This document shows positions 25,848 to 48,471 of a stretch of 64,000 nt of DNA, piece after piece (the stretch's first letter is position 1; each line of letters starts with the position of its first letter). Both the position numbers and the translations under genes were made by a program. The notes under the pieces were generated by a model. It was not told the DNA's origin and made no database searches. It saw nothing but the letters and a program-made list of their open reading frames with translations. This DNA is from Actinotignum schaalii FB123-CNA-2 (GTDB lineage Bacteria; Actinomycetota; Actinomycetes; Actinomycetales; Actinomycetaceae), in NCBI RefSeq assembly GCF_000411135.1, contig NZ_KE150262.1:842824-906823 (forward strand). The letters run 5' to 3'.

Positions 25848-25892
25848 GGCTTGTGGGGGTGGCCGTCGGGCTTGGAAGATTGACAGAAGTTC

Positions 25893-26173
25893 TCATGTGT
25901 GTTGGTTTTCCAGGTTCGCCTCCATCGACTAGGCTCGTAGCGAGCGGTTTTCCACGCTAAGGCGTGGGTAGGTCAAGGTTTGATGCATTGCCTAGGTGGG
26001 CCGTTTTCCCCGTGTAAGCGGGGGTAACAGTGTTTGCTGGCCTATAATTCTTTCCCTTGCGTCGAAATATGCAGACGCGAGAAAAGATATTATATGGACA
26101 TGTTTGATGCTTTTACACCTGATAATCATCTGGTAGTCTTGTTGTATCTCAAAGGAGAGAAAGCATGGAAAAG
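25893..26173 (+). pseudogene. Relic of a second cas control region (cas6e start, CreR cassette, cas8e start)
   Basis: This block aligns over its whole length with the intact divergent region at 35140-35424. It keeps the 5' end of a cas6e gene (its start CAT has become CAG), the -10-like GACTAGGCT, both degenerate repeats, the spacer, the cas8e promoter, AAGGAGA and ATGGAAAAG of cas8e. Similarity stops at 26173, where IS sequence starts. It differs from the intact copy at many positions, so it is an old paralogue rather than a recent duplication. Confidence 0.85.
25941..26031 (+). ncRNA. CreR-like degenerate mini-CRISPR, relic copy
   Basis: Degenerate repeat 1 (to 25975) has a 6-bp stem CCACGC/GCGTGG; the spacer is 25976-26002 (27 nt); repeat 2 is 26003-26031. 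The spacer begins AGGTTTGATGCATTG. The relic promoter at 26100 reads ATGTTTGATGCTTTT, preceded by GAC. Positions 1, 3-11, 13 and 14 match. Expression is unknown and its target gene is gone. Confidence 0.6.
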
Positions 26174-26540
26174 TGAAGTGATCCAGGTTTCTTCCTTTTG
26201 AGTAGATAAGGACATCTGGATTATGTCGAAGAAATTTGATCAGGAAACTAAGAACCGTGTTATCCGCCTTGTTGAGAAGCGGATCCTCGCCGAGGGGATA
26301 TCTTTACAAGATGCGTGCAGGGTCGTAGCGTCCAAACATGACGTTTCCTGGCATACGGCCCGCCGATGGGTTCAGCAAGCCCGTAAGAACGGGCCGGTTA
26401 GGCGGGCGGAAGAAGACGTGCTCGCAGAGAACATGCGGTTGCGCCGGGAGAACCAGGAACTCCGCGACGTTAATGAACTCCTGAAAGCCGCGTCGGCCTT
26501 TTTTGCGTGTCAAGCAGGCCACCCACATCAGACATTGTGA
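26174..26540 (+). mobile_element. IS3-family insertion sequence remnant (OrfA only)
   Basis: Insertion begins at TGAAGTGATCC directly after the third codon of the relic cas8e. OrfA (26223-26540, 105 residues) has the IS3 OrfA HTH (NRVIRLVEKR, HTARRWVQQARK) and the leucine zipper ending LLKAASAFFA. No OrfB with the DDE domain follows and no right end is recognisable, so the element is truncated and immobile. Confidence 0.75.
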
Positions 26541-26663: not shown

Positions 26664-26870
26664 ATGAGTAACCGTGATAAGCGCGAAAAACAACGTTTGC
26701 ATCGAAGCGCAGACACGGCCGAAGCTAAAATGAAACGTTTAGAACAGCGGCGCGAAAAAGGACTCGCAGCTAAAGATGCCGAGATCGTGAGGCTGGAAAA
26801 GGCAGGTGAGGTGTTAGCGAGAGCTGTTGTCTCTGCTTATCTCTTCTCCGAAAAACACGGAAATGGTTAG
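26664..26870 (+). CDS. Hypothetical small charged coiled-coil protein
   Basis: A 68-residue ORF (MSNRDKREKQRLHRS...), rich in Lys, Arg and Glu, predicted helical or coiled coil. The frame is open upstream to 26541, but that part has no coding look. No family recognised. It lies between the IS remnant and the distal end of the CRISPR array; it may be debris of another mobile element. Confidence 0.35.
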   Translation: MSNRDKREKQRLHRSADTAEAKMKRLEQRREKGLAAKDAEIVRLEKAGEVLARAVVSAYLFSEKHGNG

Positions 26871-26965: not shown

Positions 26966-29900
26966 AGGATTGCCCCCGCTCGCGCGGGGAAGAGATAGTC
27001 TGCTCCGGCTTGGCCTCAACAACCTTGGAATTACCCCCGCTCGCGCGGGGAAGAGCGCAAGATTGACCCTCACTTTAACATGACCGCGGAATTACCCCCG
27101 CTCGCGCGGGGAAGAGCAGAGACCACCATTTGCCCCATCGACCCTTCAGGAATTACCCCCGCTCGCGCGGGGAAGAGCGCCGACCGAACTGCCCGCCACT
27201 GTGGACACGGGAATTACCCCCGCTCGCGCGGGGAAGAGAATACCCGGGGCAAGCACCTCCACATTTTCAGGGAATTACCCCCGCTCGCGCGGGGAAGAGT
27301 CAACAGCGCAGCGTTCAATATTGCGCAGCTTGGAATTACCCCTGCTCGCGCGGGGAAGAGACCAGATCCAGGCCCTTCTTTTGCGAAAGCGGGGAATTAC
27401 CCCCGCTCGCGCGGGGAAGAGGAACTTGGTGTCAGGGGAGGGTATCCATGCGTGGAATTACCCCCGCTCGCGCGGGGAAGAGACGCCATGACGACGGAAC
27501 GCAGGCGACACCGCGGAATTACCCCCGCTCGCGCGGGGAAGAGTCCTACCCTCGGCCCTGTCGTAGGTAAGGTTAGGAATTACCCCCGCTCGCGCGGGGA
27601 AGAGAATACGCCACCACACAACTAGCCGCCCCGGTAGGAATTACCCCCGCTCGCGCGGGGAAGAGGGCGCTCCTCCTCCCCTCTGGGGAGTGAAGAGGGA
27701 ATTACCCCCGCTCGCGCGGGGAAGAGCTTTTATTGAAAATAATAAAAGCAGCGATGCTGGAATTACCCCCGCTCGCGCGGGGAAGAGAGCCATTTCTGAT
27801 TATGGCCATTTTCGGCGAGGGAATTACCCCCGCTCGCGCGGGGAAGAGCCTCAAACTCCACCGCGAGATCATCCGGGGCGGGAATTACCCCCGCTCGCGC
27901 GGGGAAGAGTTTGTAAAGGTCGTGGTAGAAGTCCCAGTCAGGGAATTACCCCCGCTCGCGCGGGGAAGAGTTTCCCCCTTTTTTCTTTCTCTTTAAATGG
28001 TTGGAATTACCCCCGCTCGCGCGGGGAAGAGAAGAGCAGCACCGGCGGGCTAATGCCCGGCTTAGAATTACCCCCGCTCGCGCGGGGAAGAGAAGAGCAG
28101 CACCGGCGGGCTAATGCCCGGCTTAGAATTACCCCCGCTCGCGCGGGGAAGAGTTCAGCCCCCGCGGGAACATACGCGCTCAAGTGGAATTACCCCCGCT
28201 CGCGCGGGGAAGAGTTTGTAAAGGTCGTGGTAGAAGTCCCAGTCAGGGAATTACCCCCGCTCGCGCGGGGAAGAGTTTCCCCCTTTTTTCTTTCTCTTTA
28301 AATGGTTGGAATTACCCCCGCTCGCGCGGGGAAGAGAAGAGCAGCACCGGCGGGCTAATGCCCGGCTTAGAATTACCCCCGCTCGCGCGGGGAAGAGTTC
28401 AGCCCCCGCGGGAACATACGCGCTCAAGTGGAATTACCCCCGCTCGCGCGGGGAAGAGTCTTTGAGCCCAGCGGCTTGGGCTTCTGCTTGGGAATTACCC
28501 CCGCTCGCGCGGGGAAGAGTATTGCGCGGAAGATCATGAAACCATTTTCGAGGAATTACCCCCGCTCGCGCGGGGAAGAGCCGCTCCGGGGTGCGGGTAT
28601 ATTGAATTTCACGGAATTACCCCCGCTCGCGCGGGGAAGAGCTGCGCATTCCGCTCCGGCTCCGACCGCCCTCGGAATTACCCCCGCTCGCGCGGGGAAG
28701 AGCGGCAAGGGTTGCCGAATCGGTGCGCAGCGTGGGAATTACCCCCGCTCGCGCGGGGAAGAGTGACGGTCGCGCTCCAATGCGCGCGGGTCGATGGAAT
28801 TACCCCCGCTCGCGCGGGGAAGAGATCAGCAACGCGGGGGCGATTAGTAGGGCTGTGGAATTACCCCCGCTCGCGCGGGGAAGAGGACGGGACCCTTTCC
28901 CTTTCCCTGGAAGCAAAGGAATTACCCCCGCTCGCGCGGGGAAGAGGGGCTTTCAGGGCTTCTTTATATTCCTTGAGGGGAATTACCCCCGCTCGCGCGG
29001 GGAAGAGTAGGCTAGGCGCTGCGCATGAAACATGAGCGCGGAATTACCCCCGCTCGCGCGGGGAAGAGTACCCGTGATCTAGCAGCAGCGATTAGCGCAT
29101 AGAATTACCCCCGCTCGCGCGGGGAAGAGGGCAGGCCGTGGCATATTCCTTGAAGCTAAGCGGAATTACCCCCGCTCGCGCGGGGAAGAGTGTGGGGGTC
29201 ATGGACGGCTGAACGGCATAATGGAATTACCCCCGCTCGCGCGGGGAAGAGAGCACCCGAAAATCAGGAACACCCTCGAACTTGGAATTACCCCCGCTCG
29301 CGCGGGGAAGAGTCGGTCCGGTTTGCTACGGCGCAGGTGGCGCGGGGAATTACCCCCGCTCGCGCGGGGAAGAGGGGACTACTACTACAGCGACGTGTAC
29401 CCCAGCGGAATTACCCCCGCTCGCGCGGGGAAGAGCATAGCTGGCTGCTTGCTGGATTTGCCACTGTGGAATTACCCCCGCTCGCGCGGGGAAGAGTCCC
29501 GCGTATCACGAGCTTTTGGATTCAAACCGGAATTACCCCCGCTCGCGCGGGGAAGAGACCCACACCCAAAATCTCTGCGAGCTCTGAGCGGAATTACCCC
29601 CGCTCGCGCGGGGAAGAGTATCCCGCAATGAATACAATGAGCTGGCTACCGGAATTACCCCCGCTCGCGCGGGGAAGAGAATGCCTGGAAGATGATGAAG
29701 AGATGACGGCAGGAATTACCCCCGCTCGCGCGGGGAAGAGCGGCTTTCATGCTCGGTAGCTTGGGTTTCGGGGGAATTACCCCCGCTCGCGCGGGGAAGA
29801 GTGAACAAGCGTGGTGGAAAGAAACTAAAGCCCGGAATTACCCCCGCTCGCGCGGGGAAGAGCAAAGCTCTGAAAGGAAAGAGAAAATGGCACGGGAATT

Positions 29901-30228
29901 ACCCCCGCTCGCGCGGGGAAGAGACGCGGCGCAGGTTTCGATCTGCGCCGTATTCGGAATTACCCCCGCTCGCGCGGGGAAGAGGATTTCCGCGCTAGGC
30001 TCTTGCAGCATCAGCTGGAATTACCCCCGCTCGCGCGGGGAAGAGTTGATCAGCCCGCTAGCCCGAGGGTCAAGGCTGGAATTACCCCCGCTCGCGCGGG
30101 GAAGAGCGATTTCTTTGCGGATGCCGGAGAAACTACCGGGAATTACCCCCGCTCGCGCGGGGAAGAGGCTTTGCCACGACGAGCGTATCCGTGCCAAAGG
30201 GAATTACCCCCGCTCGCGCGGGGAAGAG
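26966..30228 (-). CRISPR. Type I-E CRISPR array, 54 repeats / 53 spacers
   Basis: Repeats are 29 bp, reading on the minus strand CTCTTCCCCGCGCGAG then CGGGGGTAATTCC, the I-E type with a CCCCGC/GCGGGG stem. The unit is 61 bp; spacers are 32 nt, with one of 33 (29313-29345). Start positions run 26966, 27027, and so on to 29284, then 29346 to 30200. The array reads leftward from a leader next to cas2. The most distal repeat (26966-26994) carries three changes, as expected for the old end. The repeat at 27332 has one change. Base 29 is C in most copies and T in some (28064, 28125, 29101). Confidence 0.99.
27910..28429 (-). repeat. Tandemly duplicated spacer block in the array
   Basis: A four-spacer block at 28215-28429 recurs at 27910-28185 in the same order. 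In the latter its third spacer is doubled (28032-28063 and 28093-28124). The spacers are identical between copies. This is recombination between repeats, not new acquisition. Confidence 0.95.
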
Positions 30229-30360: not shown

Positions 30361-30840
30361 TTAGCTTATTCCGGCATGCCTATCTTCATCGGACACAGGC
30401 TCGTGCCCCCGATTATCCCGTTTGGCTATAGTGACCGTGCGCTTGCGAACCCGGCTCCTCCGTTCGCGATGAATCGGCGCATTGCTAACCGAATCAGGAG
30501 AGCTGAGCGAAGCACCTGGCAGATCGACATCATCCGGTTCCACACCAACTGCGTCCTCCGCACCCGTCCCGATAACCAGCATGCCATCCAGATCAAGGAC
30601 AGGACGACTGCCACTTCCCGTGCTGCGTAGCGCGAAGCCTTGCTCACGGGCGGCGTCGTTATAAATAAGAGTGAGACTGCCGGAACCAGCGGCGGATACC
30701 GCGCGTTCCCACAAATTGTCCCGCACCCGCGCGGAAACAACGCCCACGTACAATCCGGTGGTGACCTCGGAAAGAAACCTGCTCAAGTATCCGCGCAGGT
30801 GATCTGGGATGGCGACCGCATTAACAACAACGAACAACAC
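30361..30840 (-). CDS. cas2: CRISPR-associated endonuclease Cas2e with C-terminal extension
   Basis: Structural partner of Cas1 in spacer acquisition. The core matches I-E Cas2: LFVVVNAVAIPDHLRGYLS, LYVGVVSARVRDNLWE, EQGFALRSTG and VLDLDGMLVIG (to about residue 95). A further ~65 residues, Ser/Arg-rich at the end, follow; standard Cas2e is about 95-115 residues. No DnaQ exonuclease motif is seen in the extension. Start GTG 30840 or TTG 30837 follows AAGGAGG that overlaps the cas1 stop; the longer ORF from 30879 overlaps cas1 without an RBS. Confidence 0.9.
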   Translation of the reverse strand: MLFVVVNAVAIPDHLRGYLSRFLSEVTTGLYVGVVSARVRDNLWERAVSAAGSGSLTLIYNDAAREQGFALRSTGSGSRPVLDLDGMLVIGTGAEDAVGVEPDDVDLPGASLSSPDSVSNAPIHRERRSRVRKRTVTIAKRDNRGHEPVSDEDRHAGIS

Positions 30841-30847
30841 AGCCTCC

Positions 30848-31792
30848 TTATCCGTATTGGATGTGGCCGGAAACTTCAACGTTATTACCGGAGATGAGTC
30901 GGTCGTCGTCGCGCGCGGGGAGGAAAGGCTGGAGGATGTCCATGATGGTGGCGAGCATATCGGGAAGAATGCGGTGGTCTACGATAGCTCTCCGCACCGC
31001 TTTGCGGACAGCCGTCATGGGGTCTTCTTCACGCGCGGCCGCGAACACCAGAGGAATCGTCACGCTCGGTTTGAACAGATCCGCGAGGTCAAAAAGTAAG
31101 GAGCGCGCGTCGCCGCGGTGAATAATCCCCAGTGCCGGGTTGATCCCCAGTGCCGCGCACACGGAAGCTGCGCACCCGTAGAGTATTGAATTCGCCAAGT
31201 TCAGGCCGGCATTGACCGGGTCGTCCGAGGAAGTATCACGCGTGAAACTCCCGGTTCCATATTTTGCTGCCATCGTGCGGTAGGTATTGCGCATGAGCTG
31301 CCCCTCCAGCCCGCGCATGGTGGCAATAGAACTACCAGGCGCATTCTCCACCCCCAGCTGCTTTTTGTAGAGCACCAGCGCGGCTTCGCGCTGCCGGGCT
31401 TCATTACTCACCAGCCGGGCTTGTGCAATGGCCCATCGTGCGCTCGAGGTGAGCGGCGTGGCGTGGGTATACAGGGGCACGCCTCCTCCGCCGGTGATAA
31501 GAACGGTGGTTCCGGCGCGGGCACAGGAGGTCAGCGCTGCGCTAGAAATTGAGGTTCCGGGGCCCAAGGTAAGCACTGCTAACCCGGCTACGGGGAGTTG
31601 GATCGCCCGGGCACGGGTGCCTTCCAAGGATCCATTCTTTCCTTCCCGGCCGGCATCGTAGGCCACTACGCCCGTGCGCGATTGGCGGATTTGCACGTAT
31701 TCGAGGTAGAGGAAGGAGATCCGGTCCTCAAGGCGCACCTGCTCGCTCGCCTTGATAGTGCGGAAGGCCAGAGCCTCATCTGAGTAAGCCAT
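30848..31792 (-). CDS. cas1: CRISPR-associated integrase Cas1e
   Basis: Integrates new spacers at the leader end. 314 residues. Metal ligands by alignment with the I-E family: Glu163 (MRGLEGQ), His225 (GIIHRGDA) and Asp238 (DLADLFKP). N-terminal beta domain begins with RISFLYLEYVQIRQ. The gene starts 2 bases after cas3 and its stop overlaps the cas2 Shine-Dalgarno, so cas6e-cas3-cas1-cas2 form one leftward operon. Confidence 0.97.
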   Translation of the reverse strand: MAYSDEALAFRTIKASEQVRLEDRISFLYLEYVQIRQSRTGVVAYDAGREGKNGSLEGTRARAIQLPVAGLAVLTLGPGTSISSAALTSCARAGTTVLITGGGGVPLYTHATPLTSSARWAIAQARLVSNEARQREAALVLYKKQLGVENAPGSSIATMRGLEGQLMRNTYRTMAAKYGTGSFTRDTSSDDPVNAGLNLANSILYGCAASVCAALGINPALGIIHRGDARSLLFDLADLFKPSVTIPLVFAAAREEDPMTAVRKAVRRAIVDHRILPDMLATIMDILQPFLPARDDDRLISGNNVEVSGHIQYG

Positions 31793-31794
31793 GT

Positions 31795-34491
31795 TTACTC
31801 CTTCCCGGTGGCGGGCTGTGCCGGTGCGCCCGAGCAGTGGGGATCCGGAATGCTACCCGGCACAACGAGCCCGATGAGCGGGTCGTAATGAGCTGCGCCG
31901 TCGTTTAAAACGTGGTACCGGCAGAGTAGCGACGGCGCATTTTCAAGCGATGTCGCATCCGTAAACAGTGTTTTCGCACGACCCGTAACCGTGACCGGAA
32001 CGGACGCACGCAAAGCGCGGCGTATGCCTTCACGGTCACTGCCGCGCAGCTTCCCCAAATCTTCAGGGTCCCCGGTCCACGCGCCGGGGATAATATCCGG
32101 ATCGCCGCATACAATCAGGCGGGTGGTTTCAACTTCAATGAGCCTGGTTGAGCGCTCGTCCCCGAGGTTTTTATCACGCTGCGTCATGGCGGTGAAAGAT
32201 TGCACCTGGGAGCTTTTGCTCAGGCAATATTTCATATCGTACGTAGCGTTCCGGGCGCGGATTGCCGCCAGTGATTTCTTCGCGAATTCATTGAGTTCAT
32301 CGGGTTTATCTTCCTCGATATCCGCCAGCAGCAGGGTGCCAGTATCTACAAATTCCTGGCAATCCTCCGGGATTCGGATGTTGTTGTGTTCTTTGAGCCA
32401 TTTCTCCACGCGTGCAAGTTCGCTGGCTAGGTACGGTAGCTGTTCCCCTTCGGTGCCATTAATAGCGACGACGGACACTCGCGGCCCGCTCAGTCCCGGC
32501 ACTCGGGTGGCGCGGTTCGGATCGGCGGAACGCCACAGGCGCCCGGCACGCTGAATGAGGGACGCCGCCGGGCATAGCTCGGTGCGAAGCAGGTCGAGGT
32601 CAATATCTAGGGAGGCTTCGATTGCTTGGGTTCCGATAACCGTGAGCGCCGCGCCCGTGCTACCCGATCCGATTTCGTGTTCGAGGAGTTCAGCGTTACG
32701 ACGGCGATGCTCAGCTGTCATGCGGGAATGGAGGATAACAACGTTGCCCTCGGCGGCGAGGGCTCGGGTGAGTTCCTGGGCACGCGCAACTGTATTGCAC
32801 ATGACTCCGATGCGGGCCTGGGGGTAACGCCGCCGCTGGTCACGCACCCAATCGCGGTGCGAACTAACGAGCTTGCAATACTTTTCGGTACTGCGGTCAA
32901 TAGTGAGGGTACGGGGCGGGCCGTCGGGGCGAATACTCCGCAGCTGGGTTCCGGTGGTATCCAGGTTTTCCAGGAGGGGGAAGTGCGCTTCGCCTTGCGG
33001 GGGTTGGCCCGTATACGCCTCGAGGTAGGTGGCGCGTTGAGCGGAGGCGAGGGTGGCGGAAAGGAAGGTGACCCGGGTGTTCGTGGCGCGCAGCCAGAGC
33101 AGAAGGTTGCTGAGGAGACCGCTCTGGTACTGATCGAGGGTATGGACTTCGTCCACAACAACGTGGGCATTGGCCAGGGCGAGGAGCCGCAGGTGTGTCC
33201 ATTTTGCTGGTAGGGCACCCAGGAGTGCCTGGTCCACTGTGCCGACGCAGACGGGTGCCAGAAGGCGGGAGCTTCCGGAGCGAACGAAGTCGGTGGGGAA
33301 AAGGCCGGCTGTGCTAGCGCCGTGTTCCGCGGAGGTGGTGCTGGCTTTGCCCGGGGCTTCGCTGCGATCATTCCCCATGGTGACCGGTTGATTATAAAAA
33401 TCTTCGGTGGAGGCGAGGGAATGCGCGAGCGAAGCCACATTGGGAGTACCTGCGTAGTAGCGCTGGATGCGCCGCATGAGCGCATTCGAGGTGGCTTGGG
33501 TGGGAAGCAGGAAAATAAGGCGTTCGTTCGCGGTGGCGTGCCGGAGTAGAGCCGCTTCGGTTTTGCCGACGCCGGTGGCCGCCATAACATTCCACAGTCC
33601 ACCCCCTACCCGGGTGGCTTCTTCCTGGAGCGGGCGAGGCGTACGGTTGCCGAGGATTGCCCGTTGGCTTTGCTCTGCGGATTCCCAGCCGTGGTACACC
33701 CCGACGGTTTCTTCGATGCGGGCACGGGCGCGGGCGCGGCACGCGGTAATCCACCCGTCTGGATCATCAAGGGTGAGTTTTCCGGCCGCGAGGAGTTCCT
33801 GCTGAGCGGCCACCCATTCGGTTCCCGAAGCAATGCGGTCGGCCAGCACGGTGAGGCCGGAGAGCAAGATTGTTGCGGTTGGGGAAAGCTCGGCCGGAAG
33901 ATCAGCCCGGGTTATTCCGATGCCTTCTTCCAAGCAGGTGAGGAGATCGTCGGCCAGGGCAAGCCAGCCGGTGCTTTCAATATCTTCGAAAAGGTAGTTA
34001 GTCTCCTGCTTGCTCCAGGATGGGGCCTCGAAATGACCATGATGGCCGAGCGCCGGCAGATATTTCCATGACGTTACTGCATATGCATCGGGAATGATCG
34101 CCTTCCGATGCAGTAGCAGCGCTGACATTTTCTGGTGGTGGCGGATATCGGGAGCGTAATCCTCGCAGAAGTTTCGAGACCACGTGGAAATGTCACCAAG
34201 TTGCGGTTCTTTAGTACGGAGTGCGGCCCGAATCTCATCCCACTGCGGTCCCTTTTGGGTTTGCTGATACTGGAATACTGGGCAGGCTTTTCCAATGTCA
34301 TGCGATCCGGCCACCCATTCCACTACTTCCCGTTTCCCGGCAGCTCCGAGCACTTCACGCAGACCTGGCCGTAACCAAACCTCGTAGAGCACGCCGGCAG
34401 TGGTTGCGGTATCCAGCAAGTGGGCGAGAAGTGGGTAGGACGTTTCCGTACCGCGCTGCTTTGCCCATACGTTGGGGTGTGTGCGCATCAC
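31795..34491 (-). CDS. cas3: CRISPR-associated helicase-nuclease Cas3
   Basis: 898 residues: HD nuclease domain (His24, His64-Asp65 in AGSHDIGKA, HH near 118-119 and 150-151) followed by an SF2 helicase with Walker A GVGKT at 307-311, DEVH box at 446-449, SATLA motif, and the QRAGRLWR motif VI, then a C-terminal domain. It unwinds and degrades DNA marked by Cascade. Start ATG 34491 overlaps the cas6e stop by 4 bases, an uncommon cas6e-cas3 coupling for type I-E. Confidence 0.97.
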   Translation of the reverse strand: MMRTHPNVWAKQRGTETSYPLLAHLLDTATTAGVLYEVWLRPGLREVLGAAGKREVVEWVAGSHDIGKACPVFQYQQTQKGPQWDEIRAALRTKEPQLGDISTWSRNFCEDYAPDIRHHQKMSALLLHRKAIIPDAYAVTSWKYLPALGHHGHFEAPSWSKQETNYLFEDIESTGWLALADDLLTCLEEGIGITRADLPAELSPTATILLSGLTVLADRIASGTEWVAAQQELLAAGKLTLDDPDGWITACRARARARIEETVGVYHGWESAEQSQRAILGNRTPRPLQEEATRVGGGLWNVMAATGVGKTEAALLRHATANERLIFLLPTQATSNALMRRIQRYYAGTPNVASLAHSLASTEDFYNQPVTMGNDRSEAPGKASTTSAEHGASTAGLFPTDFVRSGSSRLLAPVCVGTVDQALLGALPAKWTHLRLLALANAHVVVDEVHTLDQYQSGLLSNLLLWLRATNTRVTFLSATLASAQRATYLEAYTGQPPQGEAHFPLLENLDTTGTQLRSIRPDGPPRTLTIDRSTEKYCKLVSSHRDWVRDQRRRYPQARIGVMCNTVARAQELTRALAAEGNVVILHSRMTAEHRRRNAELLEHEIGSGSTGAALTVIGTQAIEASLDIDLDLLRTELCPAASLIQRAGRLWRSADPNRATRVPGLSGPRVSVVAINGTEGEQLPYLASELARVEKWLKEHNNIRIPEDCQEFVDTGTLLLADIEEDKPDELNEFAKKSLAAIRARNATYDMKYCLSKSSQVQSFTAMTQRDKNLGDERSTRLIEVETTRLIVCGDPDIIPGAWTGDPEDLGKLRGSDREGIRRALRASVPVTVTGRAKTLFTDATSLENAPSLLCRYHVLNDGAAHYDPLIGLVVPGSIPDPHCSGAPAQPATGKE

Positions 34492-35162
34492 GATAGTGCC
34501 TGGACGGAGAGGAGTCCGCAGCCGTAGCTTTTTGCACGCCCTACCCCGTTGGTTTGTGCTGTGAGTAGTGCTGCGCCGTCGCCCACGGTTGCAGCTCCGT
34601 CGATTGTATCGACCTGGACGGCTCGTTTATTTTCCCCGGAAACGGTGGTCAGAACTTCGCGCCGCGAATTAATGATCTCTATATTCGTTAGCGCCGGGCT
34701 TAGTTTTGCACTCAGCCATTCAGAGAGGCTTGGAACTCCGGGAATGGGTTCTTCCCCGTCGAGCGGAATCGACCGAGTTCCCCCGGTGCCAATGCGTTGA
34801 ATCGCATTGATAGCGATCCGGAACGAAACTGGAGTTCCAGTTGGGAGTTCCTTGAGTTCAACCTCTTTCATCGCGGCCTCGTGGGGGAGGTTGAGTTGCG
34901 GCACCGGCTCGCGTGATTGGATAAGGAAGAATGGAGCATCTCCGGGAACGTGATCCAAGCGGAAAAGAATCCCCATCTCCGCTCGGGGGTGTTCCGCGCC
35001 GGTCTGTGGGAAGAGCGCCATGATCGCGCGGTGGCGTACTTGTGGGTCTTTTAGTGTCCATCCGCGCTCTGGCTTGTGCAGGGCAACGCGTGAGAGGAGT
35101 GTGTGCACCGGTACTTTTGTTAGGAAGATCGGTTGAGGTTCCGATGTGTGTTGATCTGCCAT
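34488..35162 (-). CDS. cas6e: pre-crRNA endoribonuclease Cas6e (CasE)
   Basis: Cuts at the base of the repeat hairpin and stays in Cascade. 224 residues. Family marks: FLTKVPVHTLL, VRHRAIMALFP with the likely catalytic His44, GILFRLD, FFLIQSREP and the Gly-rich loop GVGRAKSYGCGLLSV near the C-terminus. Unusually it is not in the Cascade operon but heads the divergent cas3-cas1-cas2 operon. Its start codon is close to the CreR-like cassette, so its own promoter must lie within or beside that cassette. Confidence 0.95.
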   Translation of the reverse strand: MADQHTSEPQPIFLTKVPVHTLLSRVALHKPERGWTLKDPQVRHRAIMALFPQTGAEHPRAEMGILFRLDHVPGDAPFFLIQSREPVPQLNLPHEAAMKEVELKELPTGTPVSFRIAINAIQRIGTGGTRSIPLDGEEPIPGVPSLSEWLSAKLSPALTNIEIINSRREVLTTVSGENKRAVQVDTIDGAATVGDGAALLTAQTNGVGRAKSYGCGLLSVQALS

Positions 35163-35178: not shown

Positions 35179-35278
35179 TAGGCTCTTAGCGAGCGGTTTC
35201 CACGGCTAGCGTGGGTATTTCAGGGTCTAATGGATTGCCTAGATAGGCCGCTTTCCCCGCGTGAGCGGGGGTAACAGC
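35179..35278 (+). ncRNA. CreR-type cas-regulating guide RNA (degenerate repeat-spacer-repeat)
   Basis: Between the divergent cas operons. Repeat 1 (about 35195-35222) matches the array repeat at 21 of 26 aligned positions with one gap and keeps the hairpin as CCACG/CGTGG, a compensated change. Repeat 2 is 35250-35278, with CCCCGC and GCGGGG intact. The 27-nt spacer (35223-35249) begins GGGTCTAATGGATTG. A -10-like TAGGCT at 35179-35184 would start transcription near 35191. The spacer matches the cas8e promoter at 35349 (14 of first 15). The RNA should be processed by Cas6e and loaded in Cascade to repress cas8e. Confidence 0.75.
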
Positions 35279-35348
35279 GTTTTCGAGGCTGGGTTTCTCC
35301 CCTTATCTTGAGTTTCATATTAGTGGGGAGAACCGTAAATGTAAAGAC

Positions 35349-35390
35349 GGGTCAAATGGATTGACAAGCGCCTTCTTCTCTTGTTAGTCT
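35349..35390 (+). promoter_or_regulatory. cas8e promoter and CreR target
   Basis: -35 TTGACA (35361-35366), 18-base spacer, -10 TAGTCT (35385-35390). The CreR-matching protospacer starts at 35349 (GGGTCAAATGGATTG), preceded by GAC at 35346-35348, and runs into the -35. A bound Cascade would block RNA polymerase. Shine-Dalgarno AAAGGAGAGG follows before ATG 35416. Confidence 0.75.
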
Positions 35391-35415
35391 CATTCCATCT
35401 CAAAGGAGAGGAAGC

Positions 35416-37038
35416 ATGGAAAAGATCAATGCTTTGACGGACATTCCGTTACTGGTTACGCCACGCGGGCGCTTGACAGTTCGTGATGCGCTTCTCGATG
35501 CTCATATTCTAAAAGAGCCCTCCGACAAAAAAATGGGCCGCGAACCGGTGGTTCTGGATAAGACCGTCCCGGGCTATGTGTATGGTGCAGAGTTGCGACT
35601 ATTAGCGGCGGTCGTTGCCGTGGTTTTAAGGCAGTCCAATCACACCCACCGGGATCCATTCCGGATCGACTGGGAACGCATTCTCTCGGAGGGGCTTGAA
35701 CCCGAGGCGATTGACAAAGCTATTGAAATACTCGCACCGGGGTCCTTGTTATTCGATGACCAGCAGCCATTTATGCAACGGCCGGCGGAGCCGATGCGCA
35801 ATGCGAAAGATAATGAGCGCAAGCTCGGAAAAGGGGAGCTGCGGCTCAAGAAGCTGCTACCTTCCATGATCTCCGATCAAGGTGAAGAATTCTGGAGTCT
35901 GCTAACACAGCGCGACACCCTTTCCCTGGAAGATGCGGCGCTTTATCTTCTCGCTTATCACTGCTATTCGCCGGCTGGAAATAACTCTTATGCTGGCCAA
36001 AAAGCTGAAATGGGAAGTCCTGGTTTCCATTTTGTCGGCGTAGGCATGACGGCTACCGAACTAATTTGGGAAGGCCCGTCGCTTCTTCATACGCTTTTAG
36101 CGATGATCCCTCGCTCGTGGGTAGAAGGTGATGGCTTGCCATCATGGGCAGATCGAACCGGATCTCGGGGTGGGACTGATCATCCACTATGGCGGGCTAC
36201 CTGGTCATCCAATAGTGCTGCCTGCTACTGGGAGGATAACGAGCTCGCCGGTGTGCGCATCGGTGGCGTTCCACTGGCGTGGGTTCCCCCAGAAGCGGGA
36301 GCAACGAAAGAGAGCCGAAAAGCTTACTGGGTTGAGCGCGATCAGAGCGATCCCTTCTACCTGTATTTGCCTAATAAGTCCGGCGAGTTAAAGGCTCAGC
36401 GGATGGACGTAGGGAGGGATGCGACGGATCTTGCGGTGGAATGGGCCGCACGCGGCAGACTGGCACAAGTGGCCGAAGCGCATGATCGCATTGTTTCCTC
36501 CTCTGGCTGTCGGTTGATATTCATCCGCCATTACATCGAAGGGACAGCTTCTTCTCCAGTCATCCGTTCCTCGCGGGTTGATGTGGCAGATCCGCAGCTA
36601 TGGGCTTTCGGGCTATCTGATCGAGCACAGGGCCAAGTTCGGCGCCATGCAGAGTTCATCCAGGCTCTGCACTATTGCGTGATCCAACCTTTCCGACGCG
36701 CACGCGGGGCGGCCTCCGTTACCCCTAACGGTTTGCCCACTGTTCTTGACTCACTTGAAAACTATCGGGATTCGGCATCGGATATTTTCTGGCGTGCAAT
36801 CACCCGTTCCTATGAAGATTTCCTTTCTCAAGTGACAACCGCTGAGCGGCGTCCTGAGGAAATCCGTGCGGCTCGCGGCGGGGCTGCCCAGGTTGCGCTC
36901 GGAGCTTTCGAAGAGGCAATCGCGCCCTATCGGGGTCAAGATCCGGCGCTCTTCGCGGCAGTTTATTCGAATGTTGCTCGTCATATTCGGGCTGTCACAA
37001 AACAATTTGATGTTCCCACGGCTTACGAGGAGAAATAA
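35416..37038 (+). CDS. cas8e: Cascade large subunit Cas8e (Cse1/CasA)
   Basis: Recognises the PAM and recruits Cas3. 540 residues, family-typical. Recognisable parts: the N-terminal INALTDIPLLVTPRG, LRLLAAVVAVVLRQ, DDQQPFMQRP, LLAYHCYSPAGNNSYAG, and the C-terminal four-helix bundle. First gene of the rightward operon; cse2 starts 3 bases after its stop. An excellent Shine-Dalgarno precedes ATG 35416. The promoter overlaps the CreR target. Confidence 0.96.
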   Translation: MEKINALTDIPLLVTPRGRLTVRDALLDAHILKEPSDKKMGREPVVLDKTVPGYVYGAELRLLAAVVAVVLRQSNHTHRDPFRIDWERILSEGLEPEAIDKAIEILAPGSLLFDDQQPFMQRPAEPMRNAKDNERKLGKGELRLKKLLPSMISDQGEEFWSLLTQRDTLSLEDAALYLLAYHCYSPAGNNSYAGQKAEMGSPGFHFVGVGMTATELIWEGPSLLHTLLAMIPRSWVEGDGLPSWADRTGSRGGTDHPLWRATWSSNSAACYWEDNELAGVRIGGVPLAWVPPEAGATKESRKAYWVERDQSDPFYLYLPNKSGELKAQRMDVGRDATDLAVEWAARGRLAQVAEAHDRIVSSSGCRLIFIRHYIEGTASSPVIRSSRVDVADPQLWAFGLSDRAQGQVRRHAEFIQALHYCVIQPFRRARGAASVTPNGLPTVLDSLENYRDSASDIFWRAITRSYEDFLSQVTTAERRPEEIRAARGGAAQVALGAFEEAIAPYRGQDPALFAAVYSNVARHIRAVTKQFDVPTAYEEK

Positions 37039-37040
37039 CA

Positions 37041-37670
37041 ATGGCGCAGATAGATACCCCGCAACGGGAGCCTTGGAAAGCGTTACTGTACGAAATCTTG
37101 CAACGGCGTAAAGATCCTGACTATCGCACTGCGCGTGCCGCAATTCGGCAAGGAGCAACACCGTTCACTCAAATGCGCGCTTATCCCTATGTCCTGCCCG
37201 CAGTGCCAGAAGATGCACGCCCCGAGCAACGTAATGCCTTGCTGCGGGTAGCAGCCCTGGCCGCGGAATATGACCGGGTGCCTCATTCCAGTGAGGGTAA
37301 GCGCCGCAACAGTTTGGGACGGTGGGCATATCGAGTAGCAATCGCTGAGGGGAAAAACGGGCGTGCACAATCCGTGTCACCAGATAATCCAGGAATGATT
37401 GCCGCGCGTCTGGCGTACCTGCATACCCAAGATATGGAAGAAGCGGCCCGATCCATCAAACGAATTTTTGAGGTGGCCTCAACGATTCCGGGTCCAGTTC
37501 CTCCCGTCAATTATTTCGATATTGCCGACACCCTGATGCGATGGGGTAATGGCGTTTCACCAGAATCCCAATACGTGCGCATGCGAGTAATAGAGGAATT
37601 CTATTCCGCACCTCAACTTGTGGTTTCGGATCAACTTGAAACCCTTCCTGCCAAAACTTCTGAAAACTAA
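37041..37670 (+). CDS. cse2: Cascade small subunit Cse2 (CasB)
   Basis: Small subunit that holds the displaced strand in Cascade. 209 residues, helical and Arg-rich as usual: TARAAIRQGATP near the N-terminus, RRNSLGRWAYRVA mid-protein, and the C-terminal NYFDIADTLMRWG motif typical of Cse2. Tightly packed between cas8e and cas7e. Confidence 0.93.
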   Translation: MAQIDTPQREPWKALLYEILQRRKDPDYRTARAAIRQGATPFTQMRAYPYVLPAVPEDARPEQRNALLRVAALAAEYDRVPHSSEGKRRNSLGRWAYRVAIAEGKNGRAQSVSPDNPGMIAARLAYLHTQDMEEAARSIKRIFEVASTIPGPVPPVNYFDIADTLMRWGNGVSPESQYVRMRVIEEFYSAPQLVVSDQLETLPAKTSEN

Positions 37671-37693
37671 AACCATAACCGAGAGGACCAATC

Positions 37694-38803
37694 ATGTACC
37701 GTCATCTAACCCTGCATTTCCTTACTCCGATCAGCTACTCGAATCTCAACCGCGACGATTCAGGAACCCCCAAGCGCCTCATGGAGGGCGGCGTTCTCCG
37801 CGCCATGCATTCCTCGCAGGCAATTAAACGCGGTGCACGCGTTGCTTACGAAAACTCCAGCCTTGACGTTTCGGTGCGTTCTGGCAAACTCGAGGAAGTT
37901 ATTCGCGACGCCGCACTCAAGCTTTCCCCCGATCTGGACCCGAAGAAAACCCTGACAAAGGCTCGTGCTCTCGTCGGTCAATTCACCAAGAAGCAGGCGA
38001 AAGCCGATGCTGATGATGGTGCGGGAGCTGCTGAAGCGGATCGTTCAATCTGGTTGAGTGGGGAAGAGATTCAGGTTGCAGCGCAGGTTGTGGCCGGCGA
38101 AGTCGATCCTGATACCGAGTTCGTGCTTAACGGATGCACCGGTTCCCTCGCCATTGCCGCTTTCGGTCGCATGTTCGCGGCGAAGCCTGAGAAAGGTACA
38201 GAAGCGGCGCTGAGCGTATCTCCTGCGGTGACCACCCACGCCGCCACTATTGGTACTGACTATTTCTCCACCGTTGATGATATTCGGGAGCAGGAAAAGT
38301 TCAGCGGGAAAGAATCCCGTAGCGGGGCCACCTACCTTGGAGTTAGTCAATTTACCAGCGGTATTTTCTACCGCACGGTGACCATTGATCGTGAACAGCT
38401 CCAAGCTAGCTGGACCGCTTTTGGCAAGCCGGAGGCGGAGAAAAACCTGCGTGAGATGATTACCGCTCTTATTTACGGCCAACCACGTGGCAAAGAGCAT
38501 TCAACGGCGCCCTACACGCAGCCCGTCGTTCTCCTCGCTGAAGAGCAGCGTTACCGCTGTGCTTACAGCTTTGAAACGCCGGTGAAGACCAGCTCCCAAG
38601 GTGGATACCTCGAGCCATCGGTGCAAGCCCTGCGGGACCAATTCCATGCTGCTCGCCGTTTCGATCCTGATAACTTCGGGAAGGCGCTGGCACTCACGGG
38701 AACGTTCCCCCAGTTAGAAGAGCTGTTTGGGGTGGAACCCACCTCGAAGGACGGCCTCGTTGATACGGTCGTAGCGTGGATCTTGGGCGGCCAGAATGAG
38801 TAA
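37694..38803 (+). CDS. cas7e: Cascade backbone subunit Cas7e (CasC)
   Basis: Six copies line the crRNA. 369 residues: N-terminal LHFLTPISYSNLNRDDSGTP, the GGVLRAMHSSQAIKRGAR region, GCTGSLAIAAFGRMFA, and the fold continuing to FPQLEELFGVEP. GAGAGGACC precedes ATG 37694. cas5e overlaps its 3' end by 8 bases. Confidence 0.96.
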   Translation: MYRHLTLHFLTPISYSNLNRDDSGTPKRLMEGGVLRAMHSSQAIKRGARVAYENSSLDVSVRSGKLEEVIRDAALKLSPDLDPKKTLTKARALVGQFTKKQAKADADDGAGAAEADRSIWLSGEEIQVAAQVVAGEVDPDTEFVLNGCTGSLAIAAFGRMFAAKPEKGTEAALSVSPAVTTHAATIGTDYFSTVDDIREQEKFSGKESRSGATYLGVSQFTSGIFYRTVTIDREQLQASWTAFGKPEAEKNLREMITALIYGQPRGKEHSTAPYTQPVVLLAEEQRYRCAYSFETPVKTSSQGGYLEPSVQALRDQFHAARRFDPDNFGKALALTGTFPQLEELFGVEPTSKDGLVDTVVAWILGGQNE

Positions 38804-39521
38804 TCCAACATTCCTGCGTCTGGCGGGCCCCCTGCAATCCTGGGCGGGGCCGCGAGTGACGGGGAACGTGGTCAACTCGGAGCCTCGGCCTACCCGGTCC
38901 GGTCTCCTTGGGCTCCTCGCGGGCGCTTTAGGTGCTCCGCGTGAACAATGGCCAGAGTGGCTGGAAGGTGCTGATTTTACTGTACGGGTTGATCGTCCCG
39001 GCTGTTTCATCAATGAATTCCAGACCATTAATCCCCGTGCTACCAAAAGCGGCCTCCGCAATGACGAGCTTGAGTTCCGAACACGCCAGTTGTGGATCCG
39101 GAAACAAAGTGATTCCGATAAAAACCTGGCTTTCACCCCGGATCAGCAAAACTCGAACGCGGTCATCCGCCGCACCTACCTGGCCGGAGCAGAGTTTCTT
39201 GTGCGAGTCACCTGCCCGGGACATCAGGAGGAGGTGGACGCCGCGCTGCGCAGTCCTGCTTTCGTTACCTACTTGGGGAAGAAAGCCTTTGCGCCGTCGT
39301 TCCCGTTCTATCTGGGACGCGGCGAGGATGACATGCTCAACCGGATCCCGGTGTGTGACCCGTCTTTCGAGAAACCGAAAAAACAGGTGTGGACCTATTC
39401 GCGGGCTCCACATATGCCCGATAGCGGGCCGGGGGCATTGCCCGGCACCGCGAGCATGGTCGACGTGGTGAGTGACCGAGGCGAGTGGATGAACCGAGTG
39501 GCCGCGCTACTCGATCGCTAA
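38796..39521 (+). CDS. cas5e: Cascade subunit Cas5e (CasD)
   Basis: Holds the 5' handle of the crRNA. 241 residues; N-terminal FLRLAGPLQSWAGP and the PTRSGLLGLLAGALG motif are hallmarks, followed by FVTYLGKKAFAPSFPFYLG. Last gene of the rightward operon; a strong hairpin follows. cas6e is absent from this side, unlike most I-E operons, where it follows cas5e. Confidence 0.96.
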   Translation: MSNPTFLRLAGPLQSWAGPRVTGNVVNSEPRPTRSGLLGLLAGALGAPREQWPEWLEGADFTVRVDRPGCFINEFQTINPRATKSGLRNDELEFRTRQLWIRKQSDSDKNLAFTPDQQNSNAVIRRTYLAGAEFLVRVTCPGHQEEVDAALRSPAFVTYLGKKAFAPSFPFYLGRGEDDMLNRIPVCDPSFEKPKKQVWTYSRAPHMPDSGPGALPGTASMVDVVSDRGEWMNRVAALLDR

Positions 39522-47986: not shown

Positions 47987-48138
47987 CTCTTCCCCGCACG
48001 AGCGGGGGTAATTCCCGCGGGGCAGGCGGTCACCGTCACCAAGCTGGTCTCTTCCCTGCGCGAGCGAGGGTCGTGCCGGGCGGGTCCTAGAGGGATACCA
48101 CGGCAACAGCTCTTCCCTGCGCGAGCGAGGGTGGTGCA
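47987..48138 (+). CRISPR. Decayed CRISPR array, three repeats and two spacers
   Basis: Repeats at 47987-48015 (28 of 29 identical to the main array), 48049-48077 and 48110-48138; spacers of 33 and 32 nt. The last two repeats share changes (CCCT for CCCC; GAGGG for GGGGG), so they descend from a separate array. Orientation follows the cas2 fragment with no leader left, so the array is probably silent. Confidence 0.9.
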
Positions 48139-48398
48139 GGGGCGTGGAAGCGGGGGTGTGATGTCGCGCCGGGCAAGTGCCCATAGACCCTTAATCTCCG
48201 GGTTAAGGGTTGCCGCAATCGCGCGGGATACCGTTGGTAGGACGGCGAAAAGCGCGGTATCTCGCGCCTATGCGGTAGTTGGGAAGGTGGTGTGAGGGAG
48301 GAAACAGCCTCAGGCAGGCTTCTGAACTTGCGCTGGGTGGGAACCCTGGGTAAAGTATCTATTCGTCGCCGCGGGCGGCGAACATAAAAGAATAACGA

Positions 48399-48471
<73 letters not shown>

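Follow-up and report, generated by a model that had tools for sequence, protein, structure and literature searches.

The type I-E locus and its cassette

The window, which is the whole 64,000-nucleotide stretch of the Actinotignum schaalii FB123-CNA-2 genome analysed here, carries a complete type I-E CRISPR-Cas gene set (cas8e, cse2, cas7, cas5, cas6e, cas3, cas1 and cas2) arranged as two divergent operons, with cas8e-cse2-cas7-cas5 on the + strand and cas6e-cas3-cas1-cas2 on the - strand. The cas8e gene shares 97% identity with its A. schaalii AS1054 counterpart. A small repeat-spacer-repeat cassette lies between cas6e and cas8e, and the principal features around it are as follows.

26966-30228, - strand: CRISPR array of 54 repeats and 53 spacers, a candidate source of competing crRNAs, used below in the PAM test
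34488-35162, - strand: cas6e, followed by cas3 (31795-34491), cas1e (30848-31792) and cas2e (30361-30879)
35416-37038, + strand: cas8e (cse1), with its ATG at 35416, followed by cse2, cas7e and cas5e (37041-39521)

Elsewhere in the window there is an orphan mini-array of three degenerate repeats with a spacing of 61-62 (47987-48141, + strand), close to a tRNA at 48399.

The first-pass annotation of this DNA had proposed a degenerate repeat-spacer-repeat unit of the CreR type on the + strand between the cas operons, and we find it at 35194-35278 with all coordinates and letters correct. Its parts are these.

35179-35184, + strand: putative creR -10 (TAGGCT), 9 bp upstream of repeat 1
35194-35222, + strand: degenerate repeat 1 (psiR1), with a hairpin at 35200-35214 and the 8-nt handle GTATTTCA at 35215-35222
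35223-35249, + strand: creR spacer GGGTCTAATGGATTGCCTAGATAGGCC, 27 nt, with the match to the cas8e promoter at positions 1-15 (35223-35237)
35250-35278, + strand: repeat 2 (psiR2) CCCCGCGTGAGCGGGG, near to the array repeat, with one mismatch to the array core
35292-35334, no strand assigned: inverted repeat between cassette and target, a candidate terminator or operator (fold z -2.4)

The psiR1 stem reads CCACG/CGTGG where the array repeat has CCCCG/CGGGG, so that one pair is compensated, as had been claimed. Comparison of 13 distinct psiR1 hairpins shows that the hairpin is preserved across genera through compensatory changes, and hairpin and handle are both conserved among the creR copies. 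The creR spacer is 27 nt long, as against 32 nt for the array spacers. The TAGGCT -10 is kept in nearly all Actinotignum copies, including distal ones that have no cas6e beside them, and the creR promoter call is a weak one because its -35 is not clear. The inverted repeat at 35292-35334 recurs in relatives; no T run was found at it and no creR terminator was found, and an Rfam search at the cassette returned no known RNA family. The cassette resembles a crRNA gene, has degenerate CRISPR repeats, and adjoins cas genes outside the array, all of which are marks by which CreR genes are recognised.

The cas8e promoter target and its PAM

The site that the spacer matches lies just upstream of cas8e, where the following features are found.

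35346-35348, + strand: PAM GAC (consensus NAC), with NAC at all matched targets and at 17 of 22 array protospacers
35349-35363, + strand: CreR target GGGTCAAATGGATTG, protospacer positions 1-15, with GAC directly upstream
35361-35390, + strand: cas8e promoter, with -35 TTGACA at 35361-35366, an 18-bp gap, and -10 TAGTCT at 35385-35390
35402-35411, + strand: cas8e RBS, the promoter being 26 bp upstream of cas8e
35317-35345, - strand: predicted cas6e-cas3-cas1-cas2 promoter (TTTACA-17-TAATAT), whose -35 abuts the PAM

The letters bear out a match of 14 in 15 at 35349 with a sole mismatch at position 6, and also the earlier statement that the match runs into the -35 box, since the target ends at 35363 and TTGACA occupies 35361-35366. 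The cas8e promoter is absent from the list of an automatic promoter scan because its -10 is weak. Five Actinotignum copies (six if a decayed A. timonense copy is counted) have their -35 at target positions 13-18; in four g6 genomes it is at positions 14-20, and in a few it falls elsewhere.

All of the matched targets are preceded by NAC, as GAC, AAC or TAC. As an independent test of this PAM, we matched 188 spacers from the arrays against a prophage contig of the Actinotignum relative G003 and kept protospacers with up to five mismatches; NAC precedes 17 of these 22 protospacers and is thus the same PAM as that of the creR targets. Four spacers from the window's own array match this contig perfectly. 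A phage collection searched with the array gave no match, and the PAM was taken from the relative's prophage instead. The creR spacer is therefore partially complementary to a cas promoter beside a PAM that array protospacers support, a further mark of CreR. The prophage-like contig (C2 of G003, L099/L100) is matched by spacers of all five Actinotignum genomes, and the first spacer of the G003 array matches it with one mismatch; this is apparent self-targeting, and an anti-CRISPR may therefore be present in that genome.

A guide of this architecture might instead belong to a CreTA or CrePA addiction module, in which it represses a toxin and not cas genes. The two degenerate repeats and the seed pairing at positions 1-5 and 7-11 are indeed CreA-like (PMC8501985, PMC9458426). 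However, the promoter is only 26 bp from cas8e and its RBS at 35402-35411, leaving no space for a toxin gene, no toxin ORF was found between the promoter (35361-35390) and cas8e, and the target lies directly upstream of cas8e in other genera too. We regard an addiction module as highly improbable, and favor cas8e itself as the gene controlled.

Guide-promoter pairing among relatives

Position 1 of the spacer is set by the 8-nt handle and was not fitted, and the space searched was the 193 bp downstream. The analytic expectation for a 14/15 match in these 193 bp is approximately 8e-6, and none of 20,000 shuffled spacers reached 14/15. A rule-based finder, requiring a hairpin and the handle GTANNTCN and then taking the best downstream match, yielded 13 distinct spacer/promoter pairs, six from Actinotignum (including the window's second copy, described below) and seven from other genera of the family. 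The unit is present in five of the six genomes searched within Actinotignum and in at least eight genomes from other genera of the family, where it is always upstream of cas8e.

In each of the 13 pairs the spacer fits its own promoter best, at 11-13 of 13 positions. Own-partner matches total 170 of 195, in a permutation matrix that also takes in two non-matching cassettes, as compared to a permuted maximum of 150 (none of 200,000 permutations was as good) and to a shuffled-spacer mean of 120.8 (sd 2.9). Between the window's proximal unit and the distal unit of G002, eight of 15 positions differ and all eight are changed in guide and promoter alike, while the window's own proximal and distal units differ in both spacer and promoter at positions 1, 5, 7 and 11. 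As judged from these aligned pairs, guide and promoter have coevolved in five or more genera, and permutation and covariation together indicate that the spacer-promoter pairing is maintained by selection. The spacer and target of the proximal cassette are identical in three Actinotignum genomes.

These data bear on whether the cassette is merely a dead mini-array with decayed repeats, a chance or fossil match and no present function. Its repeats are degenerate and its spacer short, and the A. timonense proximal and window distal copies are visibly decaying. Nonetheless, the pairing survives many coordinated substitutions in several genera, the psiR1 stem is held by compensation, and the proximal spacer and target are unchanged among those three genomes, such that we consider a defunct array very unlikely and a functional guide the better reading.

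Among the 21 family genomes with this Cas8e, no recognisable cassette was found in L035, L042-L045 and L047, and the cassette of L048 matches weakly. Searching the whole order with the cas8e protein turned up no relatives beyond the family, and when 30 cas6e loci from across the order were scanned for hairpin pairs within 1.5 kb flanks, which may miss the site, there was no convincing cassette; its one match was rejected as a GC-rich artefact. The spacer is just 15-20 nt in several relatives. In L036, L037, L039 and L040, which belong to another genus, it is only about 15 nt and corresponds to the matched part alone, and would give a much shortened Cascade.

Mismatches at positions 6 and 12

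Type I-E Cascade flips out every sixth base of its crRNA, leaving it unpaired (PMC5904413), and positions 6 and 12 of type I-B CreA are freely mutable (PMC8501985). The first-pass annotation had taken the single mismatch in the window as a base that Cascade does not read, and the wider set agrees: there are 15 mismatches at positions 1-13 of the 13 pairs, and 13 of them are at position 6 (eight) or position 12 (five). The binomial probability for this concentration, 2e-9, overstates independence, as the Actinotignum copies share ancestry. Mismatch at position 6 is also seen in L034, L038, L041 and L046, from three other genera, where it is C/T as opposed to T/A or C/A.

The same pattern addresses the proposal that what look like guide and target are in fact two operators, similar 15-mers bound by a conventional repressor or activator protein. 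They are 126 bp apart, and repeated sites are common for DNA-binding proteins, but operators should stay alike among paralogues, whereas these 15-mers differ strongly and yet change in step; moreover, the matched stretch starts directly after the handle on the guide side and directly after a NAC PAM on the target side, and it passes over positions 6 and 12. An operator pair is hardly credible on this evidence, and crRNA-like pairing accounts for it well.

Paralogous units

A repeat search identified a second paralogous unit in the window at 25874-26173, 9.25 kb away with the array in between, which the first-pass annotation had missed.

25947-26031, + strand: distal cassette, with psiR1 at 25947-25975, spacer AGGTTTGATGCATTG at 25976-26002 and psiR2 at 26003-26031
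26097-26117, + strand: distal target, with PAM GAC at 26097-26099, ATGTTTGATGCTTTT at 26100-26114 and -35 TTTACA at 26112-26117
26223-26540, + strand: IS3 OrfA-like ORF (105 aa) that follows the distal target and has no OrfB

The window's distal pair matches at 12 of 15 positions, with mismatches at 2, 12 and 15, as compared to 14/15 in G002 and 13/15 in A. timonense, so that in these three lineages the distal guide and its promoter still match although their sequences have changed independently. A remnant of the cas8e start, ATGGAAAAGTGA, is present at 26165, upstream of the OrfA-like ORF. This ORF is single-copy and, again without OrfB, intact in three Actinotignum lineages; judging by its dN/dS of 0.14-0.31, the gene is under purifying selection. 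A 68-aa charged ORF at 26664-26870, after the distal cassette, is likewise intact in three Actinotignum lineages (dN/dS <0.35). One rather unlikely scenario is that CreR units have multiplied and been re-aimed, with Cascade restraining a domesticated transposase-derived DNA-binding protein that would be released when CRISPR fails; alternatively, the distal unit may represent the slow decay of a former cas unit.

The proximal cassette of A. timonense has lost its spacer, suggesting that the circuit is dispensable there. The third unit of this species adjoins a separate cas6e-cas3 set (L051:4725-9579), which has its own 26-spacer array and an adjacent XRE/ImmA-like pair; no Cascade genes were found in that set, and at the other A. 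timonense locus the cas8e cassette has no cas6e next to it. We considered the XRE and ImmA-like genes that follow the third copy as regulated targets, but they are probably mere neighbours, because close XRE homologues in the window genome and in G003 sit where the cassette search found no copy.

A model for control of the cas operons

We propose, with a probability of about 0.9, that the cassette is a creR gene whose processed guide places Cascade on the cas8e promoter and represses it without cutting. The predicted creR transcript would be cut by Cas6e within both degenerate repeats, giving a crRNA-like RNA that consists of the handle GUAUUUCA and the spacer GGGUCUAAUGGAUUG... Type I-E Cascade loaded with this RNA would recognise the GAC PAM at 35346-35348 and pair with the site at 35349 through positions 1-5 and 7-15; lying across the -35 box of cas8e, it would presumably block RNA polymerase at this promoter. 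In E. coli type I-E, 5 bp of seed plus a PAM suffice to bind Cascade, whereas interference and priming require more than 18 bp (PMC5904413). The poor homology beyond position 15 that had been noted earlier is confirmed, and this pairing is likely too short for Cas3 cutting or priming; self-killing would not be expected because pairing stops at about position 15, below the >18 bp required in E. coli. The cas8e promoter would be freed by a fall in Cascade, by a rise in competing crRNA, or by an anti-CRISPR. From published CreR work (Liu et al. 2023, as cited in PMC13131331 and PMC12737573) we infer a cassette-driven repression that is relieved by crRNA competition or loss of Cascade, and through which the CRISPR complex very probably turns down its own expression.

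Of the earlier interpretation, the crRNA-like pairing stands, resting on own-partner matches, mismatches at 6 and 12, the NAC PAM and psiR1 compensation, but control may not be limited to cas8e. Since the predicted cas6e promoter starts at the PAM, the same Cascade may damp both operons, and the cassette may thus also control the divergent cas6e-cas3-cas1-cas2 operon. This would extend the cas8e model and does not compete with it. One Cascade would sit between divergent -35 boxes, and in favor of this the window's minus-strand promoter (TTTACA-17-TAATAT; p 0.007 against shuffles in a consensus scan) has sigma-70-like counterparts abutting the PAM in most relatives with an adjacent cas6e, for example TTGATT-17-TACTTT or TAGATT (three g6 genomes) and TTGCGA-17-TATTCT (L038), and has decayed in the three distal copies, where an OrfA gene takes the place of cas6e. 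However, these are consensus scans, by which the promoter is weak or absent in L039, L041 and L046, and a near-intact minus-strand promoter is present in an A. sanguinis copy with no cas6e seen beside it. We judge the odds of truly bidirectional repression to be even.

Relation to known systems and significance

CreR RNAs repress cas promoters through partial complementarity and are reported for types I-B, I-E and V-A (Liu et al. 2023, Cell Host Microbe 31:1481, as cited in PMC13131331, PMC12737573 and PMC12948488). The first-pass annotation was thus right that CreR is known from type I-B and some other systems, with the correction that type I-E is already among those reported, according to PMC13131331. 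As CreR is described in these citing papers, the Actinotignum locus resembles it in having a gene for a crRNA-like RNA among the cas genes, partial cas-promoter complementarity and a predicted reliance on the system's own effector. It differs from those descriptions in its occurrence in Actinotignum and related genera, in the several paralogous copies per genome, in the visible coevolution of guide and target, and in the predicted placement of the Actinotignum target, with a divergent -35 box on either side. The locus has every feature of CreR that can be tested on sequence and lacks the toxin of CreTA, and we regard it as a well-supported further case of CreR in type I-E, where such RNAs are, from the same citations, already known.

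CreA of CreTA (PMC8501985, PMC9458426) is similar in having two degenerate repeats, psiR1 being the more diverged, and in pairing through positions 1-5 and 7-11 with positions 6 and 12 free, but CreA represses a toxin RNA, whereas here cas8e is the proposed object of repression and no toxin was found. SpyCas9 autorepression is relieved by anti-CRISPRs (Workman et al. 2024, as cited in PMC13131331); from that account, the likeness lies in an effector that represses its own expression and is derepressed on inhibition, although SpyCas9 is a type II system with Cas9 and unrelated parts.

The long maintenance by selection of a CRISPR system's self-control can be seen here from DNA comparison alone, in a guide and a promoter that move together. 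The bases that do not covary are those that Cascade does not read, leaving an evolutionary footprint of natural Cascade pairing and offering a straightforward way to find CreR genes. The paralogous units raise the question of whether CreR units can be copied and aimed at non-cas genes. Finally, these findings advise caution, in that deletion of cas genes or flooding with crRNA would alter cas expression in these bacteria.
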